DNA from: an uncultured Bacteroidales bacterium
GTDB lineage: Bacteria; Bacteroidota; Bacteroidia; Bacteroidales; UBA932
DNA length: 48,022 nt
Reading direction: 5' to 3'
NCBI GenBank assembly: GCA_949289565.1
Contig: CASEOO010000042.1
Coordinates: forward strand, 1 to 48,022
The translations under genes and the position numbers were made by a program. Below the pieces are notes generated by a model, which was not told the DNA's origin, searched no databases, and was given only the letters and a program-made list of their open reading frames with translations. Shown piece after piece: positions 1,364-47,671 of the stretch (its first letter is position 1; every line of letters starts with the position of its first letter).

Positions 1364-1368
1364 TAAAT

Positions 1369-1857
1369 ATGACAATAGAAGAAACATTACAGATTGCGCT
1401 TGATGCGCACAAAGGGCAGAAAGACTTGGACGGGAAACCTGCTATCCTGCATCCTGTTGCAGTAGGACTTATGGGCAGCAATGACGCTGAAATCAAGGCA
1501 GGTTTCCTGCATGATGTGGTCGAGGACTCGGATCTGACGATTGATGATTTGCGCCGGAAAGGTGTGGATGAAGACGTGCTTGCTGCATTGGAACTGCTGA
1601 CCCATGACAAGGAAACGGACTATTTCGAGTATGTGTACAGGATAGCCCATTCCGGCAACTATACTGCTATTCATACCAAAATCAATGATTTGAAACACAA
1701 TTTTGACCGAGGCAGGAAGTCTTACAAGAGGGCAAAGGAACTTAACGACACGGAAAGGGCGGAACGCATTGCCAAAATCAATGAGAAGCATCGGAGAGCC
1801 TTGCAGATCTTCGGGTATATACCTCTTTATAACAGTCTGGAAAGCATTGATTTCTAA
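1369..1857 (+). CDS. small HD-domain protein, (p)ppGpp hydrolase-like
   Basis: The 162-residue product matches the hydrolase half of RelA/SpoT proteins and stand-alone alarmone hydrolases. The metal ligands are visible in the right order: His28 (in LHPVAV), His48-Asp49 (in FLHDVVEDSD) and Asp107 (in KINDLKHN). Glu52-Asp53 sits where these enzymes carry their ED pair. There is no synthetase or regulatory domain, so the likely reaction is removal of the 3'-pyrophosphate from guanosine alarmones or a related nucleotide. ATG 1369 is preferred over a TTG 9 nt upstream. It lies at the end of an accessory three-gene run. Another nucleotide substrate is possible. Confidence 0.75.
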   Translation: MTIEETLQIALDAHKGQKDLDGKPAILHPVAVGLMGSNDAEIKAGFLHDVVEDSDLTIDDLRRKGVDEDVLAALELLTHDKETDYFEYVYRIAHSGNYTAIHTKINDLKHNFDRGRKSYKRAKELNDTERAERIAKINEKHRRALQIFGYIPLYNSLESIDF

Positions 1858-2448
1858 AAACCGAGGGGGTAGAGTAGAGTGCCGGCAATCGGCACAGGGT
1901 CAAATCTAATCAGTCTGTACCCTAATACCGCCTGATGTAACTCTTCACCCGTTCAACCTTGCCGAATCGTATGCGTTTGTACGCCTTGACTCTGACAAGC
2001 CTGATAATCTCCGCCCTAATGGAGATTATGACGAATTTGCAATTTGTTCTCTTTTTCATATTGGATTAAATAGACTATAGCTGTAGAACAATTGGCTCCT
2101 CGCATAATTACCTCCCCTCGGTAGAGTTCAAAAAAACAGACATCCATTTAGGGATAGATGCCTGCCTTATTTTGCTATAGTCACTCCAATATGACATCGC
2201 AAAGATAATGATAATTTTCAGAACGGCAATATTTTTGACTTTCCTTTGCGATTTTTCGCGGAATAGTACTCCTTTAGTACACCCTGCTAAAAATGAAAAG
2301 AGGGCGGGTCAAAAGTCACGAAGTGACCGCGACTGGAAGGAGCGAGCTCCCCCTAATAGGGGGTGCAGGGGGTTAGGATGGGGCCAGTCTTTCGCAGAAA
2401 GACGATAGATGGTGACTCAAAGCCCCTTTTGAGTCACCATCTATCGTC
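1858..2448. other. non-coding, hairpin-rich stretch
   Basis: I see no convincing gene here. It contains several inverted repeats: one at 1879-1895 (GTGCCG/CGGCAC), one at 2004-2029 (ATAATCTCC/GGAGATTAT), one at 2315-2327 (GTCAC/GTGAC), a near-palindrome at 2349-2363 (CCCCCTA/TAGGGGG), one at 2387-2403 (GTCTTTC/GAAAGAC), and the long one at 2401-2448. A TATCTTTG box on the minus strand (2200-2207) could start a leftward transcript, but no protein lies in its path. The GC-rich segment 2300-2400 resembles, from memory, structured intergenic DNA of Bacteroides conjugative elements. That resemblance is not proof. Confidence 0.5.
2401..2448. terminator. long perfect inverted repeat, 21-bp arms
   Basis: Bases 2401-2421 and 2428-2448 are exact reverse complements around a 6-base loop (2422-2427). 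The repeat ends one base before the 13-bp tRNA-like core at 2449. If DNA left of 2449 once followed the tRNA-Leu gene directly, this would be that gene's transcription terminator read leftward. Alternatively it is the end structure of a second element. There is no clear T-run. Confidence 0.55.
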
Positions 2449-2461
2449 GTACCCGGAGCCG
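2449..2461. other. candidate attachment site, left end (attL)
   Basis: GTACCCGGAGCCG here is identical to 10400-10412, which is the 3' end of the tRNA-Leu gene on the other strand (discriminator base, acceptor strand and part of the T stem). The two copies are in the same orientation and enclose the replication and recombinase genes. This is what integration at a tRNA 3' end leaves behind. Identity stops after 13 bp, in keeping with the short cores used by serine recombinases. Confidence 0.6.
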
Positions 2462-2854
2462 AGTTGTTTTCGAACCAATTTCTTGCTGATTTAGAGCGGA
2501 TTTGGGCTTTGCGATATTACATACCTGACCCGAATAGACCGGATTATTCGGAGAATATATGAAGTGATTTCTATGCTCGAATCGAAATGATTTATATGGT
2601 AATTACATTGTGGTTTTTATCTGTTTTTCTCTTTCCCATGCCCGTATATAGAGGGGAGGAAGTGTTAAAAGTAACAACTGTTATCCACCTTATTTTTCTA
2701 GACGCGATAGGCAGGTATAATAGACAACATGCAGTCCGGTATGATGATTTTCTTTGAGGATTTTTGCTGGATTTGATGTTACTATACTTGACTTTTTTGC
2801 GGTGCTTACTATATATCACTATAAGGACAGGCAAATCGCGCCTGAAAAGTGACT
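2462..2854. other. left end of the element, no independent gene
   Basis: No stand-alone gene is convincing here. The first 98 bases stay open in the frame set by the attachment core and stop at TGA 2560-2562. In a circularised element these codons would follow the recombinase gene directly and give it a tail starting AELFSNQF. The rest is AT-rich upstream DNA of the small gene at 2855 and could hold the replication origin for the nearby initiator, but I could not identify a nick site. Confidence 0.45.
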
Positions 2855-3022
2855 ATGAAAACATATAAACGACAGTACCGAGAACTGGACGACACGACCA
2901 AAGAGAAGATTTCGCAGGCAAATCGGAACAGACCTAAATCAGAAATTCATCGCCAGCGCATAAGCCAAGCCATGAAGGACTATTGGAAGACGATTCCTCA
3001 CCGTCCGGCAAGTGGCATTTAA
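2855..3022 (+). CDS. small basic NUMOD3-like protein
   Basis: A 55-residue protein starting MKTYKRQYRELDD, with a core of the form KISQANRNRPKSE...RISQAMKDYW. This repeats the K-I-S-x-A-x-K/R pattern of NUMOD3-type DNA-binding helices found in homing endonucleases and in small proteins of Bacteroides mobile elements. It is strongly basic, so DNA binding is the natural inference. It lies 70 nt upstream of the replication initiator on the same strand and may help it recognise the origin. Assignment is from the motif pattern only. Confidence 0.6.
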   Translation: MKTYKRQYRELDDTTKEKISQANRNRPKSEIHRQRISQAMKDYWKTIPHRPASGI

Positions 3023-3092
3023 CCAATTATCAAGGTTAAGTTTTCGGTTTTTTGAGGACAGACAATAATAACAAGGGAAATGAACAACAGGA

Positions 3093-4070
3093 TTGATAAC
3101 ATTAGACCGTATAAAGATAATCGCACCATTGGAATGTGTTGCTATCATCAGACAAGAGGCATTCGAGGTCAAGACAAAGAATAATGCTATAATATCAATG
3201 TCATACACACAGACAAGCCCGTGCAAATTATATGTTGAGGTAGACTATAAGGAACAGGAAACGGTAATTGAGTTCACGGGCAAAATACTTATGGACGCTT
3301 ACCCTGAACTCATCAACAAGGACAATATAACAAGGTGCTTTGACCATATCAATCGTATGGGATTCTGTCGTGTGGATGTAGATATGGTATTGGAGTATGG
3401 CAAGGTCTGTTCAATGGACGTCACCAAAGATGTGCCATGTACAGATGTTGCTGCCCTGTCAGAATGGCTGCGCACGCATATCGTCAACCACCGGAAATAT
3501 CTCGCACGGAACATCGGCGGCAACTTGACCATAGAAAAGAATGTCCGGACGAAGGCGTACAGGAGACGGCTGACGGTATATGACAAGGAAAAGGAGTTGA
3601 GGCGTGCCGACAATCAGGGTTTCATGGCATCCTTGACAGACCATGAATGCCTGTTGTCTTATTTCAGGGGCAGAATCCGATTTGAGTATAACCTCAACAC
3701 CAAACAATCCATAAGGCAGGTTTTGAATATCGGGGACACAACCATAAATTCTATATTGGGTTCGGATGCAAGACCAATCTATGATTTCGTAAACGATGTC
3801 ATTTCCGAGGATAGGGAGGCGGATTCGGCTTGCCTGTCATGGACAGACAGAAAGAACCTTGCCCTGCTTCGGGATTGCGATATGGATTTGTCAAAGGTCG
3901 AGACGGAAATCCGGACTTATGCGTCAAAAGGCTCACACCTGTCGCAGATGATAAAGCCATATCGTGAGTTATGGTCAAGGATAAATGGCAAGAAGGCTGA
4001 ATTCAAGACAAATCTGCTCGGATTATTGCTTGAGACGACAATCATGCTTCCTCTCCTGTTCGTATGGTAG
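3093..4070 (+). CDS. replication initiation protein, filamentous-phage gene II/X-like
   Basis: A 325-residue protein with the layout of the phage/plasmid gene II/X replication family: an N-terminal DRIKIIAP strand, a central LTVYDKEKEL motif (a Tyr close to the position expected for nicking), and then IRFEYNLN. Such proteins nick one strand at the origin and start rolling-circle replication. I chose TTG 3093 because the family-like N-terminus begins there, and the first in-frame ATG, at MSYTQTS, would remove a conserved strand. A TGA at 3081-3083 closes the frame upstream. The hydrophobic C-terminal end (LLGLLLETTIMLPLLFVW) is odd and may be an altered tail. Confidence 0.65.
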   Translation: MITLDRIKIIAPLECVAIIRQEAFEVKTKNNAIISMSYTQTSPCKLYVEVDYKEQETVIEFTGKILMDAYPELINKDNITRCFDHINRMGFCRVDVDMVLEYGKVCSMDVTKDVPCTDVAALSEWLRTHIVNHRKYLARNIGGNLTIEKNVRTKAYRRRLTVYDKEKELRRADNQGFMASLTDHECLLSYFRGRIRFEYNLNTKQSIRQVLNIGDTTINSILGSDARPIYDFVNDVISEDREADSACLSWTDRKNLALLRDCDMDLSKVETEIRTYASKGSHLSQMIKPYRELWSRINGKKAEFKTNLLGLLLETTIMLPLLFVW

Positions 4071-4171
4071 TGTGTCAAAACCGGGAATGTATCAGTTTAA
4101 TGCATGAAAAAAGGTGATATACCCCATGTCAGATGTATCACCTTATCATTTTGTATTAATTTGATATTCTC

Positions 4172-4588
4172 CTATCTTTTCTTCATCTCGTGATGCCAAC
4201 CGTCTTCATCCCCGGCATCAGAATGCATGGTCATATCTGTATCTGTGATTAATATAACCTCATATTCATTCGGATAACCCTCAGCATCGGTAAATGAGAT
4301 TATCTTTCCGTCAAAGGTGTATTGATATGTTTCAGGGCTTTCTCCGATAAAACAAAAAGACATTTTGGACTCATCAAATACCAAATATTCTTCTCCTTAG
4401 GCAGGTTTGTCTTCTGTCAGCATTTTCCCGGATGACATCAAATATTCCCGGACAACATCCAAAGTACCGATGAGAGGATTGTCCTCATTATCGGTTCCGC
4501 TATCCGGGTCATCAGTGACTTCGGGATATTACACCATAAACACGCCTATGCCTAACAGAAGCATAATTGCATATACCGTATTTTTCAC
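4172..4588 (-). pseudogene. broken lipoprotein gene with two in-frame stops
   Basis: Read leftward from GTG 4588, one continuous frame gives a signal peptide (VKNTVYAIMLLLGIGVFMV), a TAA at 4531-4529, then an acidic stretch starting YPEVTDDPDSG. A second TAA follows at 4399-4397, then YTFDGKIISFTD and a natural end at 4172. The frame is never shifted, and all three pieces look coding and fit one secreted, lipocalin-like protein of about 137 residues. The first stop sits exactly where a lipobox Ser-Cys would be expected. It is immediately downstream of two intact lipoprotein genes of similar build, so it is probably a decayed third member. Confidence 0.65.
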
Positions 4589-4623
4589 AATCTTGTATAA
4601 TTGCAGGTTGTTTTAATTTTATC

Positions 4624-5151
4624 TCATGGTAATTTGGACAGTGTGGCGACATACCTTATCTCATGCAGGTTCCCGTCATATCCAAGCCAATCTGTGATTG
4701 GGTCATAATTGAACATCTCTCTGAACTGATACCCGAGGACGGTGGCCGCATCAATCTCTATGTAGACATGCCCGTCCGATACGCTGCCCAATGAACCGGA
4801 CTCGCCCGTTTCGGGATTTCGGATTTTCAGTTCTCCTCCTGAATACTCCCATTCGGCGACTTTTGTCCCCATTACATACAGACAGCCGTCATTGCTGAAG
4901 TTATAGGTAATCATGGCGCCTAAGCCTCCACTCATGGGGTCATAGAATTCTTTGGTCGAATTGTCTTCCATCAGGCATACTATGCCCAACTCCAACTTGT
5001 TGAACTCTATCAGGCTGCCGTCATAATAGAAATCGTTGCTGGATATTGACCAATTACCGGCAATATCTGCATTGTCGGTCTTGTCTTTGTCGCATGAGCC
5101 TGCCATGACACCCAAGCAGAGTACCATGACCGTATACAGTAATCGTTTCAT
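4624..5151 (-). CDS. lipocalin-like lipoprotein
   Basis: The 175-residue precursor has a type II signal: basic MKRLL, a hydrophobic stretch, and a lipobox ending AGSC with Cys20 as the lipidated residue. DKDKTDN follows; acidic residues after the cysteine are typical of surface-exported Bacteroidetes lipoproteins. The mature part opens with ADIAGNWSISS, the G-x-W start of lipocalin-like domains, and is rich in short beta strands. It ends GNLHEIRYVATLSKLP, matching the end of the neighbour upstream (GNVHELKEVYVFSKQ), so the two are paralogues. They are 42 nt apart on the minus strand and probably co-transcribed. Ligand unknown. Confidence 0.75.
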   Translation of the reverse strand: MKRLLYTVMVLCLGVMAGSCDKDKTDNADIAGNWSISSNDFYYDGSLIEFNKLELGIVCLMEDNSTKEFYDPMSGGLGAMITYNFSNDGCLYVMGTKVAEWEYSGGELKIRNPETGESGSLGSVSDGHVYIEIDAATVLGYQFREMFNYDPITDWLGYDGNLHEIRYVATLSKLP

Positions 5152-5193
5152 AAGTTGATATTTTTGTGAAATTATTAAGGCTGCAATATATGT

Positions 5194-5799
5194 TTATTGT
5201 TTAGAGAACACGTAAACTTCCTTTAATTCGTGGACATTCCCGTCTCGTCCCGACCAAAAATCTATATCAGTTTCCGGGGAGTCAATTTCATGGTCGCTTA
5301 TGTAATATCCCTTACATTTATACGTACCGTAGGTCATGCAAAGATTGTTGCCTGAAATTGTAAACAGGTATGACTCTTTGTCCGGGGCATCGGCGGCGAC
5401 CATTAAAACCTGACCATTTTGAAAAGACCACCTCAAAGGAAAATCCTCGTCATGGATACCTTCTTCAGACCAAAATGTAGCAGTTCCGTCCTCTTTGAAA
5501 ATAATGCCCAAATCAAAATAAAATTCAGGACCGTTCTCGCTGACATCATAAATATCCTGACCGTAGGAACTACTTCCGGATGTCAAGAAATAGCAGTATT
5601 TTTCGGCAACATTTACAGGGATTTTCTCATTGTCATAATAGTAATCTGTTGTTGATTGGTACCATGTTCCCACAATGTCCGATGCCTCTTTTATTGTTGT
5701 AGGCGGAGGTGTAGATGAGCTAGTACTTGAGTCTTTGTCGCATGAGAAGAAGATGCAGCCAAGCAGAAGGAGCATCAGTGTGTTAAGTTTTTTAAGCAT
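5194..5799 (-). CDS. lipocalin-like lipoprotein
   Basis: A 201-residue precursor starting MLKKLNTLMLLLLGCIFF, with lipobox FFSC and Cys20 as the modified residue. A Ser/Thr/Pro linker follows (about residues 24-36), then a lipocalin-like domain opening with DIVGTWYQSTTDYYYD. The start DIxGxW...YYYD and the end GNxHExxxV...SK are shared with the 175-residue protein downstream, pointing to gene duplication inside the element. It is first in a leftward run of two intact genes and one broken gene. The product is expected at the outer membrane or cell surface. Its role in the element (binding, protection or fitness cargo) is not visible. Confidence 0.75.
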   Translation of the reverse strand: MLKKLNTLMLLLLGCIFFSCDKDSSTSSSTPPPTTIKEASDIVGTWYQSTTDYYYDNEKIPVNVAEKYCYFLTSGSSSYGQDIYDVSENGPEFYFDLGIIFKEDGTATFWSEEGIHDEDFPLRWSFQNGQVLMVAADAPDKESYLFTISGNNLCMTYGTYKCKGYYISDHEIDSPETDIDFWSGRDGNVHELKEVYVFSKQ

Positions 5800-6161
5800 A
5801 ATAATGATGGGTTATACCTCCCGCCTCTCGGAGGTTGTCCTGTTATAAGAAAGTGTGAGGCTGATTCCGTTTATCTTATAGGAGGTTGTGGCTAACCCGA
5901 ATGCGAATAAACGACCCAATACCTCACACCCGTATAGATTGAGGTATCAGGAGCTACAACGCCCCTTTGCCACATGGTCTACACAAGAATGAGTGCTGTC
6001 CGTTAATCCCCGCATTCAGAAAATTGCCACATTTCCTATAAGGACTTACGAAAACACTTCCGTATGTTATTCACCGGAATTCCGGCACGACAAAGGTAAG
6101 CATTTTCGCGATACGGACAACACCCATATTGAAGGTATTGACCTGCAAATTAAATGTTTTT
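5800..6161. other. intergenic region between lipoprotein and HAD genes
   Basis: I find no gene here. A short inverted repeat lies near 5816-5835 (ACCTCC/GGAGGT) in what would be the leader of the lipoprotein transcript. The region must hold the start signals for the leftward lipoprotein genes and any terminator for the HAD gene ending at 6162. I could not find a clear promoter box of the TAnnTTTG type for the lipoproteins. Confidence 0.4.
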
Positions 6162-6911
6162 TCAAGATAGCAGGTCTATGATTTGGATTGGGCTTGAACA
6201 GTGTTCCCCTTTTTTCAATTCTTCCGTTTCGTTTACATTTTCGCAGTCCCATGTTGCAGCGACAAACCGTATTCCTGCACTCTCAGCCATCTTCCTGTCC
6301 TCCAACGAATCCCCGATGTAAATGGCATCATCCTTCGGAATTCCGCCCAATTTATTGAGAGCCATGTCTATCAGTTTCGGGTCCGGTTTCCGGTGATACA
6401 GCTGCCACCCTACAATACCGTCGCAGTCAATGTTGAAGAAGCTGAATGCGGCTTTTATTATGTCAGTTTTGGCGGAACTGACGATACCGACTTTGATACC
6501 GCTGTCCTTCATCCATGAGAAGACACTTTTCCATCCGTCGTAAAGGGTGTACTGACGGACTATTTTGCTGCATATCAGGTCGAAATCCTTTGCTTTGCGA
6601 GCTTCCCTGTCAATCCTGGTGTCGAATATTGTACAGTCAAAGTCAATCAGGACAGCCTTCGGTCTGATTGTATGCCGTTGCCTTTCGGCAGCCTTACGCC
6701 CTCTCATGCCCTTTGCAGAAATGAGGACACCTTCTTTTATAGTCGCTTTGCCGTTGATGTACGGTTTGTCGGGGGTGATGCCATAATTCCGGAGCGACCC
6801 GTACGAGACCCCCAATTCCTCTTTGGTAAATTTTGAGTATATCGCAGCCACAGAGCCGAAGTAATAGTCGTTGCCGCCGAACCTAAGATGAATGATTTTC
6901 CTGTCAGCCAT
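6162..6911 (-). CDS. HAD-family phosphatase with an extra N-terminal domain
   Basis: The 249-residue protein has all HAD motifs: D90-F-D92-C-T94 (nucleophile and acid), Ser145 in GIVSSAKT, Lys175 in HRKPDP, and the acidic pair in GDSLED (Asp201, Asp205). The spacing fits a cap-C1 phosphatase of the phosphoglycolate phosphatase/PpaX type. The substrate cannot be told. About 85 residues precede the HAD part (FGGNDYYFG, GSLRNYG and others) and look like a separate small domain. ATG 6911 (MADRKIIHL) is preferred to the ATG at 6938 because a consensus promoter box (6926-6933) lies between them, so transcription would start after the upstream ATG. Confidence 0.75.
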   Translation of the reverse strand: MADRKIIHLRFGGNDYYFGSVAAIYSKFTKEELGVSYGSLRNYGITPDKPYINGKATIKEGVLISAKGMRGRKAAERQRHTIRPKAVLIDFDCTIFDTRIDREARKAKDFDLICSKIVRQYTLYDGWKSVFSWMKDSGIKVGIVSSAKTDIIKAAFSFFNIDCDGIVGWQLYHRKPDPKLIDMALNKLGGIPKDDAIYIGDSLEDRKMAESAGIRFVAATWDCENVNETEELKKGEHCSSPIQIIDLLS

Positions 6912-6925
6912 ATTCTCGTTTTCCG

Positions 6926-6956
6926 CAAATATACGCATTTATGACAAATACTCAAA
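6926..6956 (-). promoter_or_regulatory. promoter of the HAD gene
   Basis: On the minus strand a TTTG (6956-6953), a 19-nt spacer and TATATTTG (6933-6926) form a full Bacteroidetes promoter. It overlaps the upstream ATG at 6938 and supports translation from 6911. Confidence 0.65.
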
Positions 6957-6969
6957 ATATGTCATAAAT
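6937..6969. promoter_or_regulatory. inverted repeat, candidate operator
   Basis: ATTTATGACA (6937-6946) and TGTCATAAAT (6960-6969) are perfect 10-bp inverted arms 13 bases apart, lying across the leftward promoter. The heptamer TGTCATA occurs again at 6992-6998 in the rightward promoter. The arrangement suggests one regulator acting on both divergent transcripts. Confidence 0.5.
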
Positions 6970-6972
6970 ATA

Positions 6973-7004
6973 TTTGCATATATTAAATAAATGTCATATC
7001 TTTG
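6973..7004 (+). promoter_or_regulatory. promoter of the 7029-8430 gene group
   Basis: TTTG (6973-6976), a 20-nt spacer and TATCTTTG (6997-7004) match the Bacteroidetes housekeeping promoter exactly. Transcription would begin around 7011, just upstream of ATG 7029. Confidence 0.7.
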
Positions 7005-7028
7005 TATCAAGATAATAAAGGAACAGCA

Positions 7029-7370
7029 ATGAGAGCATACGACTTCAAGGCAGCGGTTGACGAGATAAGGAAAAGCGGTGGCAGCAGGCAGACCTTATAT
7101 ATAAGGGAAGCATGGAGAGACAGGTGCATGACAATCTTCGGGTATGTGGACGGGAGTGCAGAGGTGTTTGAGGAGACTCATCCATACATGGCTTTCAATT
7201 CCGTTGCGGAGGCAGTTTTAGCACTCAATAAGATACAGGGCGAGTATGACAAAGCCCTCGACGAGAGCAGAAAGGCATTCTCCAACAGGCAGGCAGAGGT
7301 AAAGGTCGAGTCATGCTCAATTGCAGAATGGTATGCCACAGCACCGAGAGGGACATATTTCGGAGACTGA
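7029..7370 (+). CDS. hypothetical protein of a mobile element
   Basis: A 113-residue soluble protein starting MRAYDFKAAVDEIRKSGG and ending APRGTYFGD. The start ATG 7029 lies about 18 nt after the predicted transcription start. Residues 70-95 (LALNKIQGEYDKALDESRKAF) look helical. No catalytic motif or membrane segment is visible and I do not recognise the family. It leads a compact rightward run of small proteins ending with a serine resolvase, a layout common in Bacteroides mobile elements. Confidence 0.6.
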   Translation: MRAYDFKAAVDEIRKSGGSRQTLYIREAWRDRCMTIFGYVDGSAEVFEETHPYMAFNSVAEAVLALNKIQGEYDKALDESRKAFSNRQAEVKVESCSIAEWYATAPRGTYFGD

Positions 7371-7408
7371 TGCAGGAACAAGTTTAACAATATCAAAAGA
7401 ATAAAGCC

Positions 7409-7483
7409 ATGAATAATACGATGATAGTAACGAGGGACAGCAGGACAGTCACGAGGATTGCGATTATAGGAGAAGCGGCATGA
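7409..7483 (+). CDS. 24-residue leader-like peptide
   Basis: ATG 7409 opens a frame encoding MNNTMIVTRDSRTVTRIAII and four more residues, ending in TGA 7481-7483. That stop overlaps the ATG of the next gene (7480) in an ATGA junction. The overlap suggests translational coupling: ribosomes finishing the short frame could restart on the SH3 protein. The peptide may have no function of its own. Confidence 0.4.
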   Translation: MNNTMIVTRDSRTVTRIAIIGEAA

Positions 7484-7734
7484 TTGCAGGCGCAAAGTCG
7501 ATGATGGTTGAGAATTTGAAACGGCAGATGAGGAACGGGGTGGCGCATTTCGCTTTTGTCAAGAAGAACGGTGAATTCCGGGAAGCATGGGGCACGACAA
7601 GTGCAGCCCTTGCGGCAAAGCATACCAACGGGAACGGAGAATGCAGGGAGCAATTTGCCACCACGGCATATTTTGACGTTGAGGCAGGTTCATGGCGTTC
7701 ATTCAGGTGGGAGAACCTGATAGCAGTATATTGA
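7480..7734 (+). CDS. SH3 beta-barrel fold protein (DUF2693-like)
   Basis: An 84-residue protein with the pattern of DUF2693 proteins, common on Bacteroides mobile elements. The visible pattern is VENLKRQMRNGVAHFAFVKK, then EAWGTT, then AYFDVEAGSWRSFRWENLI near the end. The repeated G-x-A-x-F-x-F-x-K-K strand and the closing W-R-S-F-x-W-E-N-L signature are clear. These small barrels are thought to bind a partner protein or nucleic acid, but no function is established. ATG 7480 overlaps the stop of the tiny frame upstream. An alternative start is the methionine at residue 9. Confidence 0.7.
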   Translation: MIAGAKSMMVENLKRQMRNGVAHFAFVKKNGEFREAWGTTSAALAAKHTNGNGECREQFATTAYFDVEAGSWRSFRWENLIAVY

Positions 7735-7785
7735 CGGAGACGGAGGATGGATTGCTCCCCGTCCTCTCCAATACATGACAAGAAA

Positions 7786-8430
7786 ATGGACAAGGTAGTA
7801 ATTTTTGCACGGGTCAGCACCGACAGGCAGGAGTATCAGAGGCAGCTTGTAGAGTTGCGGGAATATTGCGCCAAGGCAGGGTGGCAGGTAGTCAGAGAAT
7901 TCGCCAGCAAGATTTCAGGGGCGAAGCGGAACGATGAGAGGCCGGAGATAATGGAAATGATAGACTACATAAAGGCCAATGCCATTGACCGGGTTGTAGT
8001 GCTGGAGATTTCGAGGCTCGGCAGGAATACCCTTGAAGCCTTGAAAGTCATTCAGAACCTCAATGACAACGGGGTTTCCCTGTATATCAAGAACTACAAT
8101 CTAGAAACTCTCACTCCTTCAGGGCAGGTCAATCCTGTTGCCTCCCTCATCTGCACTATTCTTATTGAAATAGCCCAAATGGAACGGCTGACAATCAGGG
8201 AGCGCATGGCATCTGGACGCAACCAATATATAAGAAGGTGCAGGGAACAGGGCATCAAGATGGGGCGTCCCTCAACTTATCGGAAATCAGAGGCCATGTA
8301 TAAGGAACAGTACGGCAGGGAAATATCTCTCCTGAAGAAAGGTATAAGTTTAAGGAACGTCGCATCAATTACGGGCGTGTCAGTCAATACCTTGCGCAAG
8401 ATTCGGAACCTTTTGGGCGACCATGTATAA
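7786..8430 (+). CDS. small serine recombinase (resolvase/invertase family)
   Basis: A 214-residue resolvase. It begins MDKVVIFARVSTDRQ with Ser11 as the catalytic nucleophile inside ARVSTDRQ. RVVVLEISRLGRN carries the conserved arginine pair, and a long E helix leads to GRPSTYRK. A C-terminal helix-turn-helix (about residues 170-210, RNVASITGVSVNTLRKI) contacts DNA. The length is the family norm. I chose ATG 7786 because these proteins usually start directly before the first strand; an in-frame ATG at 7747 would add 13 residues. Likely roles are resolving element dimers or inverting a segment. No paired invertible repeats are visible nearby. Confidence 0.85.
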   Translation: MDKVVIFARVSTDRQEYQRQLVELREYCAKAGWQVVREFASKISGAKRNDERPEIMEMIDYIKANAIDRVVVLEISRLGRNTLEALKVIQNLNDNGVSLYIKNYNLETLTPSGQVNPVASLICTILIEIAQMERLTIRERMASGRNQYIRRCREQGIKMGRPSTYRKSEAMYKEQYGREISLLKKGISLRNVASITGVSVNTLRKIRNLLGDHV

Positions 8431-8436
8431 ATGTGG

Positions 8437-8468
8437 TTTGGGAATTCAAAATCAAATCCATATATTTG
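8437..8468 (+). promoter_or_regulatory. promoter of the integrase operon
   Basis: TTTG (8437-8440), a 20-nt spacer and TATATTTG (8461-8468) form an exact Bacteroidetes promoter. The first good start codon is at 8700, so the message would have a leader of about 225 nt. Confidence 0.65.
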
Positions 8469-8474
8469 CATCAG

Positions 8475-8699
8475 ACGGTACAAATACCATGTGCTGTCCT
8501 CTGAAGTTGTTTCGGTTTCAGAGTTATAATAAGCCTTCAAGGCATCTCAAAACGTAATAAACATCATATAATAAATAGGTGCAGAAAATCCGGCTATGCA
8601 ACCGGACGGGGCAAAGCCGTCCCGGGCGTACAAGAACCGTTGTCAATAGGTAATGGCAACGTGGTCGAAAGGGCGAATAAGGCGGTAATATGCTTATGG
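8475..8699 (+). other. long structured leader of the integrase operon
   Basis: Between the promoter and ATG 8700 there is no convincing gene. The leader contains CCGG...CCGG repeats and a hairpin with arms GGACGG (8604-8609) and CCGTCC (8617-8622), close upstream of the first gene. It could control translation or premature termination of the recombinase message. Confidence 0.4.
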
Positions 8700-8873
8700 A
8701 TGTTATCACTTGAAAAGTGTGTCACTATACTGAAACAATACGATTATAAGATTGACAATGATACACTTAAAGAACTGAGGGATTACCTGTATTCAATAGC
8801 CTCGATACAGGTAATGAATGATGATTCGGAAGCTGATATAAATAATTTTACTATTAACACTTCAGTTATATGA
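8700..8873 (+). CDS. small helical protein coupled to the recombinase
   Basis: A 57-residue acidic protein starting MLSLEKCVTILKQYDYKID. The pattern EK-x-x-x-I-L-K...L-x-x-L-R-D-Y-L-Y-x-I-A is helical and resembles short proteins that often precede recombinases in Bacteroidetes elements. Its TGA (8871-8873) overlaps the recombinase ATG (8870), so translation of the two is coupled. I chose ATG 8700 over a TTG at 8640. It may act as a directionality or accessory factor, but that is inferred from position only. Confidence 0.55.
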   Translation: MLSLEKCVTILKQYDYKIDNDTLKELRDYLYSIASIQVMNDDSEADINNFTINTSVI

Positions 8874-10519
8874 TAAATGTCATATTATATACAAGGGTCA
8901 GCACCGATGAGCAGGCTGACGGAATGGGACGGGAGGCACAGGAGAGATATTTAAGGGCCTACTGCACAAACCATGACTATAACATAGTCGGGGATGAACA
9001 ACCATATAAGGAGGACTACTCGGCAAAGAGCCATGAACTTGACCGACCTGAACTGATGAAGGTTTATAAATACTGCAAGAAACATAGAGGGCAGGTCAAT
9101 AAAGTGCTGTTTCTCCGCTGGGACAGGTTTACCCGTAATGTGGAATTCGCATATACGTACAAACGTAAGTTTTATGATGAGTTAGGAATTGAAATCAATG
9201 CGATAGAGGCCCCGATAGATTTTACACGTCCCGACTGGGCCCTTATGTTGGCAATGTATTGCGGTGCAGCCCACGCGGAAGACAACAAGATTGCCGAAAG
9301 GACGAAAGACGGCAACCACGAGCACCTGATGAGAGGCGAATGGACAGGCAGAGCCCCAAGAGGGTACAAGAATGTCAGGGCAGGGAAGCATAATTGCTGG
9401 ATAGAGATAGACAAGGAAAAGGCTCCGGCTATCCGGCAGGCTTTTGAGGAGGTTGCCAAGGGTTTGGAGGCTCCGACAAGAATAAGGAAGCGGCTGTGCC
9501 CGTATATTCCGGATTCGTCATTCTTCGATATGCTCCGCAATCCGTTCTATGCCGGGATTATCCGTGTCCCGGCGTATAAGGACGACCCTGAGCAGTATGT
9601 TGAGGGCAAGCACGAAGCCCTTATAGACAAACTGACATTTGACAAGGTACAGGCAGTCATAGACGGAAAGAAGAAATCAGTGCCGAAGCTGGCGCAGAAA
9701 AAGGTAAATCCGGATTTGTATCTCCGGAAGTTCCTTGTCTGTCCCGTCTGCGGCCATCCTCTGACAGGTGCGACAAGCACAGGTAACGGAGGCCAATATA
9801 CCTATTATTTCTGCAATCATGACCACAGGCACCTCAACAGGAGAGCGGAAGAAGTCAATGATGGCTTTGTGAAGTACGTGTCGGCATTGAAGCCTAACAA
9901 GGCTGTGCTTGCGCTGTACAATGAGATATTGTTGGATATCCGGGGCGATAAGGTTAGAGAGAACAAGTTGCAAGCGGACAAACTTGAAGCAGAGTTGAAT
10001 TCCATTCAGGAGAGAGCAGACAGAGTGAGGGATTTATTTTATGACGGGCAGATAACAAAGTTGGAGAAGGAGCAGACTATGGAGCGATACAACAGGCAGA
10101 TATCAGATTTGAAGGAGCGGATAGGTGCGTTGAGGATGAGCAAGGATATGAAGGTGCAGGACAAGCTGGACTACTCAATCAATATCATCGGGAATCTCGG
10201 AGAATTTTTCAGGACTGCAAAGCCGGAAATCAAGGTTTTGCTACTCGGTTCGATATTTCCGCAAAAAATCGAATTCGACGGAAAAAATTATCGAACCAAG
10301 TCCTACAATCGGATGCTCGACCTTATTTATCATGAAACCAACAAATTACAAGGACAGAAAAATAAAAAATCCTCTGAAAAATCAGAGGATTTCAGTTGGG
10401 TACCCGGAGCCGGGGTCGAACCGGCACATCCTTTCGGACATTGGTGTTTGAGACCAACGCGTCTACCGATTCCGCCATCCGGGCATGCTGGCAGCAGGCG
10501 GCAGCCCTGCTGGAAATGA
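8870..10519 (+). CDS. large serine recombinase (integrase), tail fused across tRNA
   Basis: A 549-residue integrase. The resolvase domain starts MINVILYTRVSTDEQ with nucleophile Ser11 and is followed by the Recombinase domain (about 170-270, APRGYKN...LRNPFYAG). A zinc ribbon follows (CPVCGHPL...YYFCNHD, about 295-325), then a coiled coil (about 360-430). It should carry out insertion and excision of the element. From residue 511 (VPGAGVEPAHP) the frame reads through the antisense strand of tRNA-Leu, so the last 39 residues are acquired from the target site. The stop is in chromosomal DNA. In the circular form the tail would differ (starting VPGAELFSNQF). The start overlaps the stop of the gene before it. 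Confidence 0.88.
   Translation: MINVILYTRVSTDEQADGMGREAQERYLRAYCTNHDYNIVGDEQPYKEDYSAKSHELDRPELMKVYKYCKKHRGQVNKVLFLRWDRFTRNVEFAYTYKRKFYDELGIEINAIEAPIDFTRPDWALMLAMYCGAAHAEDNKIAERTKDGNHEHLMRGEWTGRAPRGYKNVRAGKHNCWIEIDKEKAPAIRQAFEEVAKGLEAPTRIRKRLCPYIPDSSFFDMLRNPFYAGIIRVPAYKDDPEQYVEGKHEALIDKLTFDKVQAVIDGKKKSVPKLAQKKVNPDLYLRKFLVCPVCGHPLTGATSTGNGGQYTYYFCNHDHRHLNRRAEEVNDGFVKYVSALKPNKAVLALYNEILLDIRGDKVRENKLQADKLEAELNSIQERADRVRDLFYDGQITKLEKEQTMERYNRQISDLKERIGALRMSKDMKVQDKLDYSINIIGNLGEFFRTAKPEIKVLLLGSIFPQKIEFDGKNYRTKSYNRMLDLIYHETNKLQGQKNKKSSEKSEDFSWVPGAGVEPAHPFGHWCLRPTRLPIPPSGHAGSRRQPCWK
10367..10392 (-). terminator. intrinsic terminator after tRNA-Leu
   Basis: Arms 10367-10377 and 10382-10392 are exact 11-bp reverse complements around a 4-base loop. 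Read on the minus strand, the stem directly follows the tRNA and is followed by a T-rich run (TTTATTTTT). It lies inside the recombinase frame, within the element. Confidence 0.75.
10400..10412. other. attachment core at the tRNA end (attR)
   Basis: GTACCCGGAGCCG, identical to 2449-2461, covers the last bases of tRNA-Leu on the opposite strand. It is the point where the recombinase reading frame leaves element DNA and enters the tRNA gene. Confidence 0.6.
10401..10484 (-). tRNA. tRNA-Leu (anticodon CAA)
   Basis: Read leftward, the gene starts GCCCGGATGGCGGAATCGG and ends CTCCGGGTA. The acceptor arms GCCCGGA/TCCGGGT pair, with a G-U at the first pair. The D-arm contains GGTAGAC, and the anticodon loop CTCAAAC gives CAA. 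A long variable arm (TGTCCGAAAGGATGT) marks it as a class II leucine tRNA, and the T-arm is GCCGG-TTCGACC-CCGGC. The length is 84 nt without CCA, and CCA is not encoded. It is intact despite being the insertion target. Confidence 0.95.
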
Positions 10520-46079: not shown

Positions 46080-46898
46080 ATGAAAACAAGAACAGAGAAA
46101 CTCGAAGCATTCGGCAGAATACTCGACATACTGGATGAGCTCAGAGTGAAATGCCCGTGGGACAGGGCGCAGACTGCAGAGTCACTCAGGCCTCAGACTA
46201 TAGAAGAGACATACGAACTTAGCGACGCCATCCTTAAAAAAGATGACGCAAACATATCTAAAGAGCTCGGCGATGTGCTTCTTCATGTCCTTTTTTATTC
46301 CAAAATAGGAGAAGAAAACGGTACATACGATATCGTGGATGTCATCAATCATCTGTGTGACAAACTCATATACCGCCATCCTCATGTCTTCTCCACTGCT
46401 CAGGTGGCCGATGCCGCAGAGGTGGTGAAGAACTGGGAACAGCTGAAGCTGAAGGAAAAGGACGGGAACAAGAGAGTCCTGTCAGGAGTTCCGGAGACCC
46501 TTCCTCCTCTCCTGAAAGCCTACAGGATGCAGGACAAGGCTCGTGGTGTGGGCTTCGACTGGGAGCAGAAAGAGCAGGTATGGGACAAGGTCAGCGAGGA
46601 ACTCGGCGAATTCAAGGCAGAACTCCAGTCCATGGAGACCGTATCGTCCGACGAAGACAAGAAAGCCGCCAAAGACCGTGCAGAAGCCGAGCTCGGTGAC
46701 TATCTCTTCGCGATAGTCAATGCCGCCAGGCTCTACGGACTGAATCCGGATACGGCTCTCGAGCGTACCTGCCGCAAGTTCAGGCAGAGATTCACATATC
46801 TGGAAGAGCACACCATCAGGCAGGGCAGAAGTCTGAAAGACATGACACTGGCCGAGATGGATGCTATCTGGGACGAGGCTAAGGCAAAGGGACTCTGA
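46080..46898 (+). CDS. mazG: nucleoside triphosphate pyrophosphohydrolase MazG
   Basis: A 272-residue enzyme with two MazG domains that splits NTPs to NMP and pyrophosphate. Domain 1 starts LRVKCPWDRAQTAESLRPQT and has the magnesium motif EETYEL...KELGDVLLH. Domain 2 has SEELGEFKAEL and AEAELGDYLFAI. It cleans damaged or excess nucleotides. Its stop overlaps the ATG of tcdA (TGATG at 46896-46900), so the two are coupled. Confidence 0.94.
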   Translation: MKTRTEKLEAFGRILDILDELRVKCPWDRAQTAESLRPQTIEETYELSDAILKKDDANISKELGDVLLHVLFYSKIGEENGTYDIVDVINHLCDKLIYRHPHVFSTAQVADAAEVVKNWEQLKLKEKDGNKRVLSGVPETLPPLLKAYRMQDKARGVGFDWEQKEQVWDKVSEELGEFKAELQSMETVSSDEDKKAAKDRAEAELGDYLFAIVNAARLYGLNPDTALERTCRKFRQRFTYLEEHTIRQGRSLKDMTLAEMDAIWDEAKAKGL

Positions 46899-47671
46899 TG
46901 GAGGCGGATATTGTGATGCCTGCAGGAGCTCAGTCATCTGGGATTCCTGCCTGGAAGGAGCGGACTGCTCTTCTCATCGGCCTGGGAGGAGTGGACAGGC
47001 TGGCCCGTGCTGCTGTGGCCGTAATAGGGGCCGGGGGTGTCGGAGGTTTTGCGGCAGAGATGATAGCGCGTGCAGGGGTGGGCAGGATGCTTGTCATGGA
47101 CAGTGACGTGGTGTCGGTTACGAACAAGAACCGGCAGCTTCTGGCCTTGGATTCCACCGTTGGAAGGCTCAAATGCGAGGTGCTGGCCGAAAGGCTCAGG
47201 GATATAAACCCTGACATTGACCTGAAGGTCATGGAAAAGTATCTGGAGGCTGACGCTGTGGCTGCTGTTTTCGCGGACTGGAAGCCCGATGTGGTGATAG
47301 ATGCAATAGATACCATCGCGCCGAAGCTTGCGTTGATCAAGTATTGCCTCGACAGAGGCATCCCTGTGGTTTCATCGATGGGGGCCGGAGCTAAAATGGA
47401 TGCGACTAAAATCAGGATAGCTGACATTTCGAAGACTTTCAACTGCCCGCTGGCTTTTATCGTCAGGAAAAGGCTTCGCAGGATGGGGATCACAAAGGGT
47501 GTGACAGCAGTTTTTTCAGAGGAACTGCCTGACAAGGATGCTTTCATTGTCTGTGACGAGAAGAACAAGAAATCTAACGCCGGAACCATTTCCTATATTC
47601 CCGCCGTCTTCGGGTGCACCTGTGCCCAGGCGGCAATATCTTCGCTGCTTTCGGACCGGAAATCCGTTTGA
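46898..47671 (+). CDS. tcdA: tRNA threonylcarbamoyladenosine dehydratase
   Basis: A 257-residue ThiF/E1-like enzyme that cyclises t6A37 of tRNA using ATP. The ATP site is VIGAGGVGGFAAEMIARAG, followed by DSDVVSVTNKNRQ and DAIDTIAPKLALIKYC. SMGAGAKMDATKI and GTISYIPAVFGC close the pattern. TcdA is favoured over MoeB/ThiF by length and lack of zinc Cys pairs. Start codon ATG 46898 overlaps the mazG stop. No terminator is obvious downstream; the next feature is a repeat array. Confidence 0.9.
   Translation: MEADIVMPAGAQSSGIPAWKERTALLIGLGGVDRLARAAVAVIGAGGVGGFAAEMIARAGVGRMLVMDSDVVSVTNKNRQLLALDSTVGRLKCEVLAERLRDINPDIDLKVMEKYLEADAVAAVFADWKPDVVIDAIDTIAPKLALIKYCLDRGIPVVSSMGAGAKMDATKIRIADISKTFNCPLAFIVRKRLRRMGITKGVTAVFSEELPDKDAFIVCDEKNKKSNAGTISYIPAVFGCTCAQAAISSLLSDRKSV

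Follow-up and report, generated by a model that had tools for sequence, protein, structure and literature searches.

An integrated element at a tRNA gene

The window (the whole stretch of DNA analysed, 48,022 nucleotides from an uncultured Bacteroidales bacterium) contains on its forward strand, at 8870..10519, an open reading frame of 549 amino acids that encodes the integrated form of a large serine integrase with Pfam Resolvase, Recombinase and zinc-ribbon (Zn_ribbon_recom) domains. Its N-terminus is formed by the Resolvase domain (E 2e-22), where R9, V10 and S11 are invariant across 50 aligned proteins and S11, judged by its position, is presumably the catalytic serine; the gene occurs in a single copy in the window's own genome (E <= 1e-40). 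The body of the gene (8870-10399) runs up to a 13-bp core whose first base, 10400, is also the first base of codon 511. Core comparison identifies this copy (10400..10412, forward strand) as that of attR, where it supplies codons 511-514 and one further base, and the reading frame then continues into a replacement tail (10413..10519, forward strand; from the reading frame and the tRNA positions) made of antisense tRNA followed by chromosome. The target is a tRNA-Leu(CAA), predicted at 10397..10485 on the reverse strand and left whole by the insertion, with the core lying within the 3' end of the antisense tRNA. The original prediction, that the integrase frame crosses the 13-bp core at codon 511 and ends in antisense tRNA and chromosomal DNA, thus describes the locus correctly.

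The core, GTACCCGGAGCCG, occurs in two exact copies, at 2449-2461 (attL, forward strand, by core comparison) and 10400-10412, with no further exact copy in the window. Allowing up to two mismatches yields four matches against 0.50 expected, a number equalled by 1 of 100 shuffles. Together the two copies delimit an integrated element (2449..10412, core to core) of 7951 bp (7.95 kb) from core start to core start. A second genome of the same genus, which has no element at this place, matches the left flank of the window (1366-2245) at 83% and reaches the same tRNA 491 bp further on, where similarity to the window restarts exactly at 10400. Because this genome has no match to window positions 2246-2448, the comparison fixes the right end of the element to the base and leaves the left end resting on the core copy. 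A dispersed repeat of about 150 bp (2292-2448) abuts the attL core and ends in a palindrome with 21-bp arms (2401-2448); similar copies lie on contig C32 of the same genome (91%), and others occur in further genomes from the genus. To the right of the tRNA, the second genome matches window positions 46080-47637, about 35 kb (10557-46079) being absent or rearranged there.

A contig scan of genomes recovered 22 relatives, and genome searches added further loci, defining a gut-bacterial family of small mobile elements with relatives in Bacteroidales and core-to-core lengths of 4.4 to 17.5 kb. The family uses nine target tRNAs: Leu(CAA), Leu(CAG), Leu(TAA), Arg(CCT), Arg(CCG), Met(CAT), Glu(CTC), His(GTG) and Ala(GGC). 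The integrase frame enters antisense tRNA unshifted in 18 of the 22 relatives; it stops ahead of the tRNA in L039, and the match length is not divisible by three in L033, L041 and L051, with frameshifts inside the gene in L033 and L041. Non-tRNA DNA lies to the right of the core in L041 (from 10529 on), L079 and L116, and in L041 a tyrosine-recombinase-like gene follows the core, as if a second element had entered the same tRNA later.

The gene content would be consistent with an integrating plasmid for which the free state is important. Besides the integrase, the element carries a gene resembling those for replication proteins (3093..4070, forward strand; Phage_CRI, E 7.2e-5), with members of the same cluster in 7 of 21 elements and an open reading frame similar in size and place in 12 others (the one tested had no Pfam match). 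A resolvase-type small serine recombinase (7747..8430, forward strand; Pfam and clustering of reading frames) belongs to a serine recombinase cluster of 41 reading frames that covers all 21 elements, most of which have a small recombinase in addition to the integrase. A Cro/C1-like regulator on the opposite strand (a weak match) is found in 14/21. A small NUMOD3-like reading frame (2849..3019, forward strand; 19.7 bits, below the Pfam cut-off of 20.4) has a counterpart in 19/21 and is a candidate helper or directionality protein. An 84-amino-acid reading frame (7480-7734) contains a WYL_2 domain (E 5.9e-24), with relatives in 4/21 elements including that of the window, and a 77-amino-acid frame directly 5' of the integrase (8640-8873), without a Pfam match above the cut-off, has similar reading frames in 7/21 (BLAST).

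A probable stranded integrase tail

Just inside the left end, beside the NUMOD3-like frame, lies what the sequence indicates to be a stranded C-terminal tail of the integrase (2461..2562, forward strand), consisting of 33 codons and a TGA in frame with integrase codon 514 across the core. In-silico joining reproduced the predicted circular form, in which codon 514 passes in frame to base 2461 and the frame stays open for 33 codons to the TGA at 2560; codons 511-514 are followed by these 33 codons (tail AELFSNQFLADLERIWALRYYIPDPNRPDYSENI). Related elements carry, just inside the far end, a start-less stretch with the consensus LFSNQFLEDLDxIWxLRxxIPDP, and across the core this tail continues the integrase frame in all 25 related elements with two readable intact ends, which are not 25 independent trials because the elements are related (L031 and L032 are nearly identical). 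The 25 comprise 21 under a fixed core rule, three added elements (L116, L124 and L125) and L078/L130; in L041 the tail was compared with the frame downstream of the internal frameshift. Of the 21, 18 have the core in codon phase 0 and 3 in phase 2, and the tail tracks the phase.

Cores were defined as the longest shared stretch containing GT(A/G) close to the tRNA end, a rule adopted after a first pass in which the unrestricted longest match had put L052 and L075 out of frame; that pass had also assigned L040 an odd core, and its matches in these three loci fell within the tRNA or off its end. Duplicate contigs, recognised by their length, were counted once (L031/L123, L032/L122, L041/L128, L052/L121, L039/L104 and L047/L057). 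Eleven loci with a contig end 0-7.6 kb to the left (L033, L039, L043, L045-L047, L051, L117, L118, L120 and L126), none of which showed a tail, were excluded from the 25, and loci with short left flanks (L058-L061, L071, L073 and L114) also stood outside the count. A scan of the left parts with a loose motif, from which a few unrelated chance matches were set aside, found a conserved start-less coding stretch directly after the core in 16 of 23 loci (the window and L031-L052), and a profile built from the tails scored 72-89 in the seven loci where it detected one, against at most 24.2 in shuffled sequence. A scan of 132 loci, covering both strands, gave at most one tail per locus. The tail was absent within about 46 kb to the left in L119, and L127 retains, at about position 114 of the oriented locus, a degenerate tail that is interrupted by a stop codon and lacks a core, likely a dead left end. 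Among seven more distant loci (L080-L086, 31-35% identity), a tail-like stretch follows a core in frame in L084 alone. That the tail is a small gene of its own was considered and rejected: the copies share no start codon and the DNA before each is unrelated. In the window, TTG at 2464 is a conceivable start, at a place where relatives have CTA, CTT, CTG, GTT, GTC or other codons.

The joined protein was also found among database homologues. The original prediction had pointed to recombinases that align to about residue 510 of the integrase and continue with a tail like AELFSNQFLADLE; one such protein, P0092 (548 amino acids), is among the 120 homologues listed of 884 above threshold. It aligns with the integrase and carries SVPRTGLFSNSFLRDLDKIWELREVIPDPTKV..., and thus represents integrase and tail joined. 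In P0092 the predicted free form has a counterpart among real sequences, on a single 2305-base contig that may instead derive from a tandem junction. Approximate pattern matching assigns tRNA-antisense ends to 98 of the 120 listed homologues, the tail to one and other ends to 21, the last group including early-stopped and cut proteins. Homologues from free elements that stop before the core had been named as evidence against the prediction; P0044, P0058, P0080 and P0090 do stop there, and this group has no readable left end that would tell free forms from elements still carrying a tail. A search with the P0092 tail, which yielded three candidates, matched P0092 alone; the rarity of joined proteins says little, since clustering of the database at 90% identity would hide free forms whose sole difference is the tail. 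Viral contigs searched with one protein and alignment A1 gave no match, PLSDB and a phage collection gave only matches below 60% identity and no close relative, and a PDB search with the tail profile gave a single match (E 1).

Structure predictions place the protein among the large serine integrases. The integrase body model resembles solved serine integrases (best Foldseek match 9dxd_A, E 3.0e-16), and the P0092 model has long helices at 343-439, the coiled-coil region as in large serine integrases. By Pfam and Foldseek, every recognised domain precedes the core, and the integrated gene loses the tail alone. Once the alignment includes tail rows, the model contains a helix at 517-531 (mean pLDDT 67 over 521-530, pTM 0.35) that is unplaced relative to the body; without these rows the tail is unresolved. 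The tail is predicted, with moderate confidence, to form a short helix tethered by a flexible linker, the linker (487-518, low confidence) being probably disordered.

The attachment sites and the tRNA T-loop

On the tRNA side, TCGAAC (the T-loop of the tRNA in antisense) starts 16 nt from the G of the core GT (10416..10421, forward strand), and on the attP side it starts 21 nt from that G (2470..2475, forward strand); the two are likely the zinc-ribbon motifs of attB and attP, respectively. Across the family, the tRNA-side distance to the G of GT(A/G) is 16 nt in 21 of 22 tRNA-bearing elements and 14 nt in L074 (His), and the motif reads TTGAAC in L077 and L078; L041, L079 and L116, with other DNA there, stand outside this count. 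On the attP side, TCGAAC or a one-change variant stands at 21 nt in 23/25, at 22 nt in L048 and at 19 nt in L074 (the distance in L130 was counted from the sequence directly). Once the crossover is at the tRNA end, tRNA geometry alone fixes the T-loop distance, and the informative part of the spacing is the attP motif and the 5-bp difference. In the LI integrase of Listeria, the available text of PMC3783163 places the zinc-ribbon motif at attP positions 16-24 and 5 bp nearer the centre in attB, in agreement with the location found here. A short core and a putative zinc-ribbon motif lying 5 bp nearer the centre in attB, both characteristic of large serine integrases, are found here, and the shift indicates that the enzyme probably finds tRNA genes via the T-loop. 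We consider it probable that the integrases of this family pick their tRNA genes in this way, through the zinc-ribbon domain. A long fixed core, as in tyrosine systems, was rejected: the shared stretch is down to 5 bp in L040, L044, L052 and L075.

The bases around the core probably serve more than one role. In L052, the DNA motif is in place but read in a different frame, with the protein motif a few codons later, an arrangement which argues that the DNA motif and the protein tail are conserved separately. Folding further identifies, on the tRNA strand, a hairpin followed by a U-rich run (10366..10393, reverse strand), probably a replacement terminator for the tRNA. A hairpin and U-rich run precede the core in all 21 elements folded (z -2.5 to -7.2; 100 simple shuffles each), and the hairpin bases also encode the linker preceding the tail.

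Selection on the tail and the probable consequences of its proposed exchange

For codons 4-25 of 20 tails (of 21; L079 is too short), reading in the integrase frame gives a pN/pS of 0.344 and stops at 0/440 codons; the two alternative frames give 1.136 and 1.675, with stops at 19/440 and 38/440. Among 31 close pairs, dN/dS of the tail could be computed in 25, with values of 0-0.084 in 23 and the highest in L037/L049 (0.128) and L040/L042 (0.229); synonymous sites were saturated in the other six. Within a group of seven elements (21 pairs), tail DNA is 79-92% identical, as against 41-65% in the next 150 bp and 41-54% in the preceding 150 bp. These patterns show that the tail evolves as a protein under purifying selection and, since such selection acts only where the tail is translated, its position points to translation in the circle or at a tandem junction. 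Taken with P0092, the in-frame conserved tail implies that integration takes off a selected tail and substitutes tRNA-antisense residues, and we are highly confident that the gene is split by integration with its tail under selection.

We propose the following course of events. The attP crossover would lie inside the integrase gene, near its 3' end. In the circle, codon 514 would run into the 33-codon tail (2461-2562), giving an enzyme of 547 amino acids that promotes attP x attB integration. Its zinc-ribbon domain would sit on the T-loop, whose sequence in attB lies 5 bp closer to the crossover than the corresponding motif does in attP. Insertion beside the tRNA gene would leave the conserved tail stranded at the opposite end, and tRNA-antisense residues would take its place at the C-terminus. 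The tail-less enzyme would then integrate poorly, favouring stable residence, or excision with a helper protein. As a whole, this explanation (a self-split serine integrase, T-loop targeting and a state switch) appears to us quite likely to hold. A state switch is the likeliest role of the tail swap, and changed behaviour is likelier than lost activity because the integrated enzyme keeps every recognised domain. That the tail favours integration is a tentative choice of direction, on which we would put slightly less than even confidence. Control of direction in serine integrases is usually credited to a separate directionality protein. The available text of PMC5704250 describes TndX of Tn4451 as a serine recombinase that integrates and excises without a directionality factor, and a helper therefore need not exist. 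Somewhat more speculatively, the family may read the T-loop common to tRNAs, and so be able to settle next to many tRNA species, and use the integrase gene as a memory of location, with an oppositely biased tail-less form as a partial stand-in for a directionality factor.

Two readings accept the exchange and give it another purpose. Under the first, compactness accounts for attP at the gene's 3' end, the tail aids the free enzyme's folding, persistence or binding, and the two forms do not differ in recombination. It would explain why recognised domains are all kept in the integrated form and why replacement tails vary with the tRNA so that no single sequence is selected, and the Mx8 integrase is likewise active, with changed specificity, after a similar swap (available text of PMC6070905). 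However, purifying selection on a tail present only in the free form points to a state-specific job, and we judge this reading rather unlikely. Less probable again is that the swap sets the amount of enzyme and not its direction, through a tail that marks for degradation or through lowered expression from antisense tRNA and hairpin: a terminator-like hairpin faces the integrase transcript in 21/21 elements folded, and tag-like C-termini are known in integration-dependent phage immunity, but the replacement tails have no common motif beyond what the tRNA imposes. Very little probability remains for conservation of the tail as DNA only, as an attP arm whose open frame is a by-product; the fixed TCGAAC-like motif, 21 nt from the core in 23/25, would be expected of such an arm, yet changes fall at synonymous sites in codons 4-25, pN/pS is frame-specific, and L052 has its DNA motif in another frame with the protein motif later. 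An open frame across a tRNA can arise by chance at a single locus, but unshifted entry in 18/22 relatives, the 98/120 listed homologues and the nine tRNA species make such an accident practically negligible.

An attP within the integrase gene is already known from the Mx8 and SSV types, both tyrosine recombinases. The integrase of Mx8, a phage of Myxococcus xanthus, is a tyrosine recombinase. According to the available text of PMC6070905, its attP is part of the integrase coding sequence, and the gene acquires a new 3' end on integration, which bears out Mx8 as the parallel drawn in the original prediction; the available part of Islander also places this integrase among the tyrosine integrases. 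The sequence of our element suggests the same combination of attP inside the integrase gene and a new C-terminus on integration. In contrast to Mx8, this integrase has serine recombinase domains, a tail conserved across the family and many tRNA targets, and tyrosine recombination, common to the Mx8 and SSV types, is replaced by a serine recombinase with Bacteroidales relatives. The 'suicidal' archaeal integrases of the SSV type likewise have attP in the gene, which integration parts in two; the available text of PMC8371274, where self-disrupting integrases are termed exclusively archaeal, describes tyrosine enzymes whose N-terminal part is cut from the catalytic domain, whereas here the C-terminal tail alone appears to be lost, recognised domains all lying before the core. 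Mycobacteriophage BPs, as far as the available text describes its integration-dependent immunity, similarly has attP inside a gene whose product is altered by integration; the gene is that of the repressor in BPs and of the integrase itself here.

In domain order, coiled coil, short core and 5-bp zinc-ribbon shift, the enzyme resembles the large serine integrases (LI/A118, Bxb1 and phiC31), all known members of which, to our knowledge, have attP outside the integrase gene. In 2014, serine integrases were not known to specify tRNA genes (available text of PMC4383910), and the available text of two later papers (PMC5704250 and PMC12884075) contains no serine integrase at a tRNA gene. In titles and abstract openings of the open literature, to which subscription papers mostly do not belong, we recognised no report of self-altering or tRNA-using serine integrases. 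If the proposed exchange is real, self-altering integrases would extend from the tyrosine to the serine family, and recombination itself would edit the enzyme, making two natural forms of one enzyme directly comparable. If the T-loop reading holds, serine integrases would also follow a simple rule (T-loop, 16 nt) in their use of tRNA genes, and this rule might turn tRNA-adjacent sites into landing pads in Bacteroidales.
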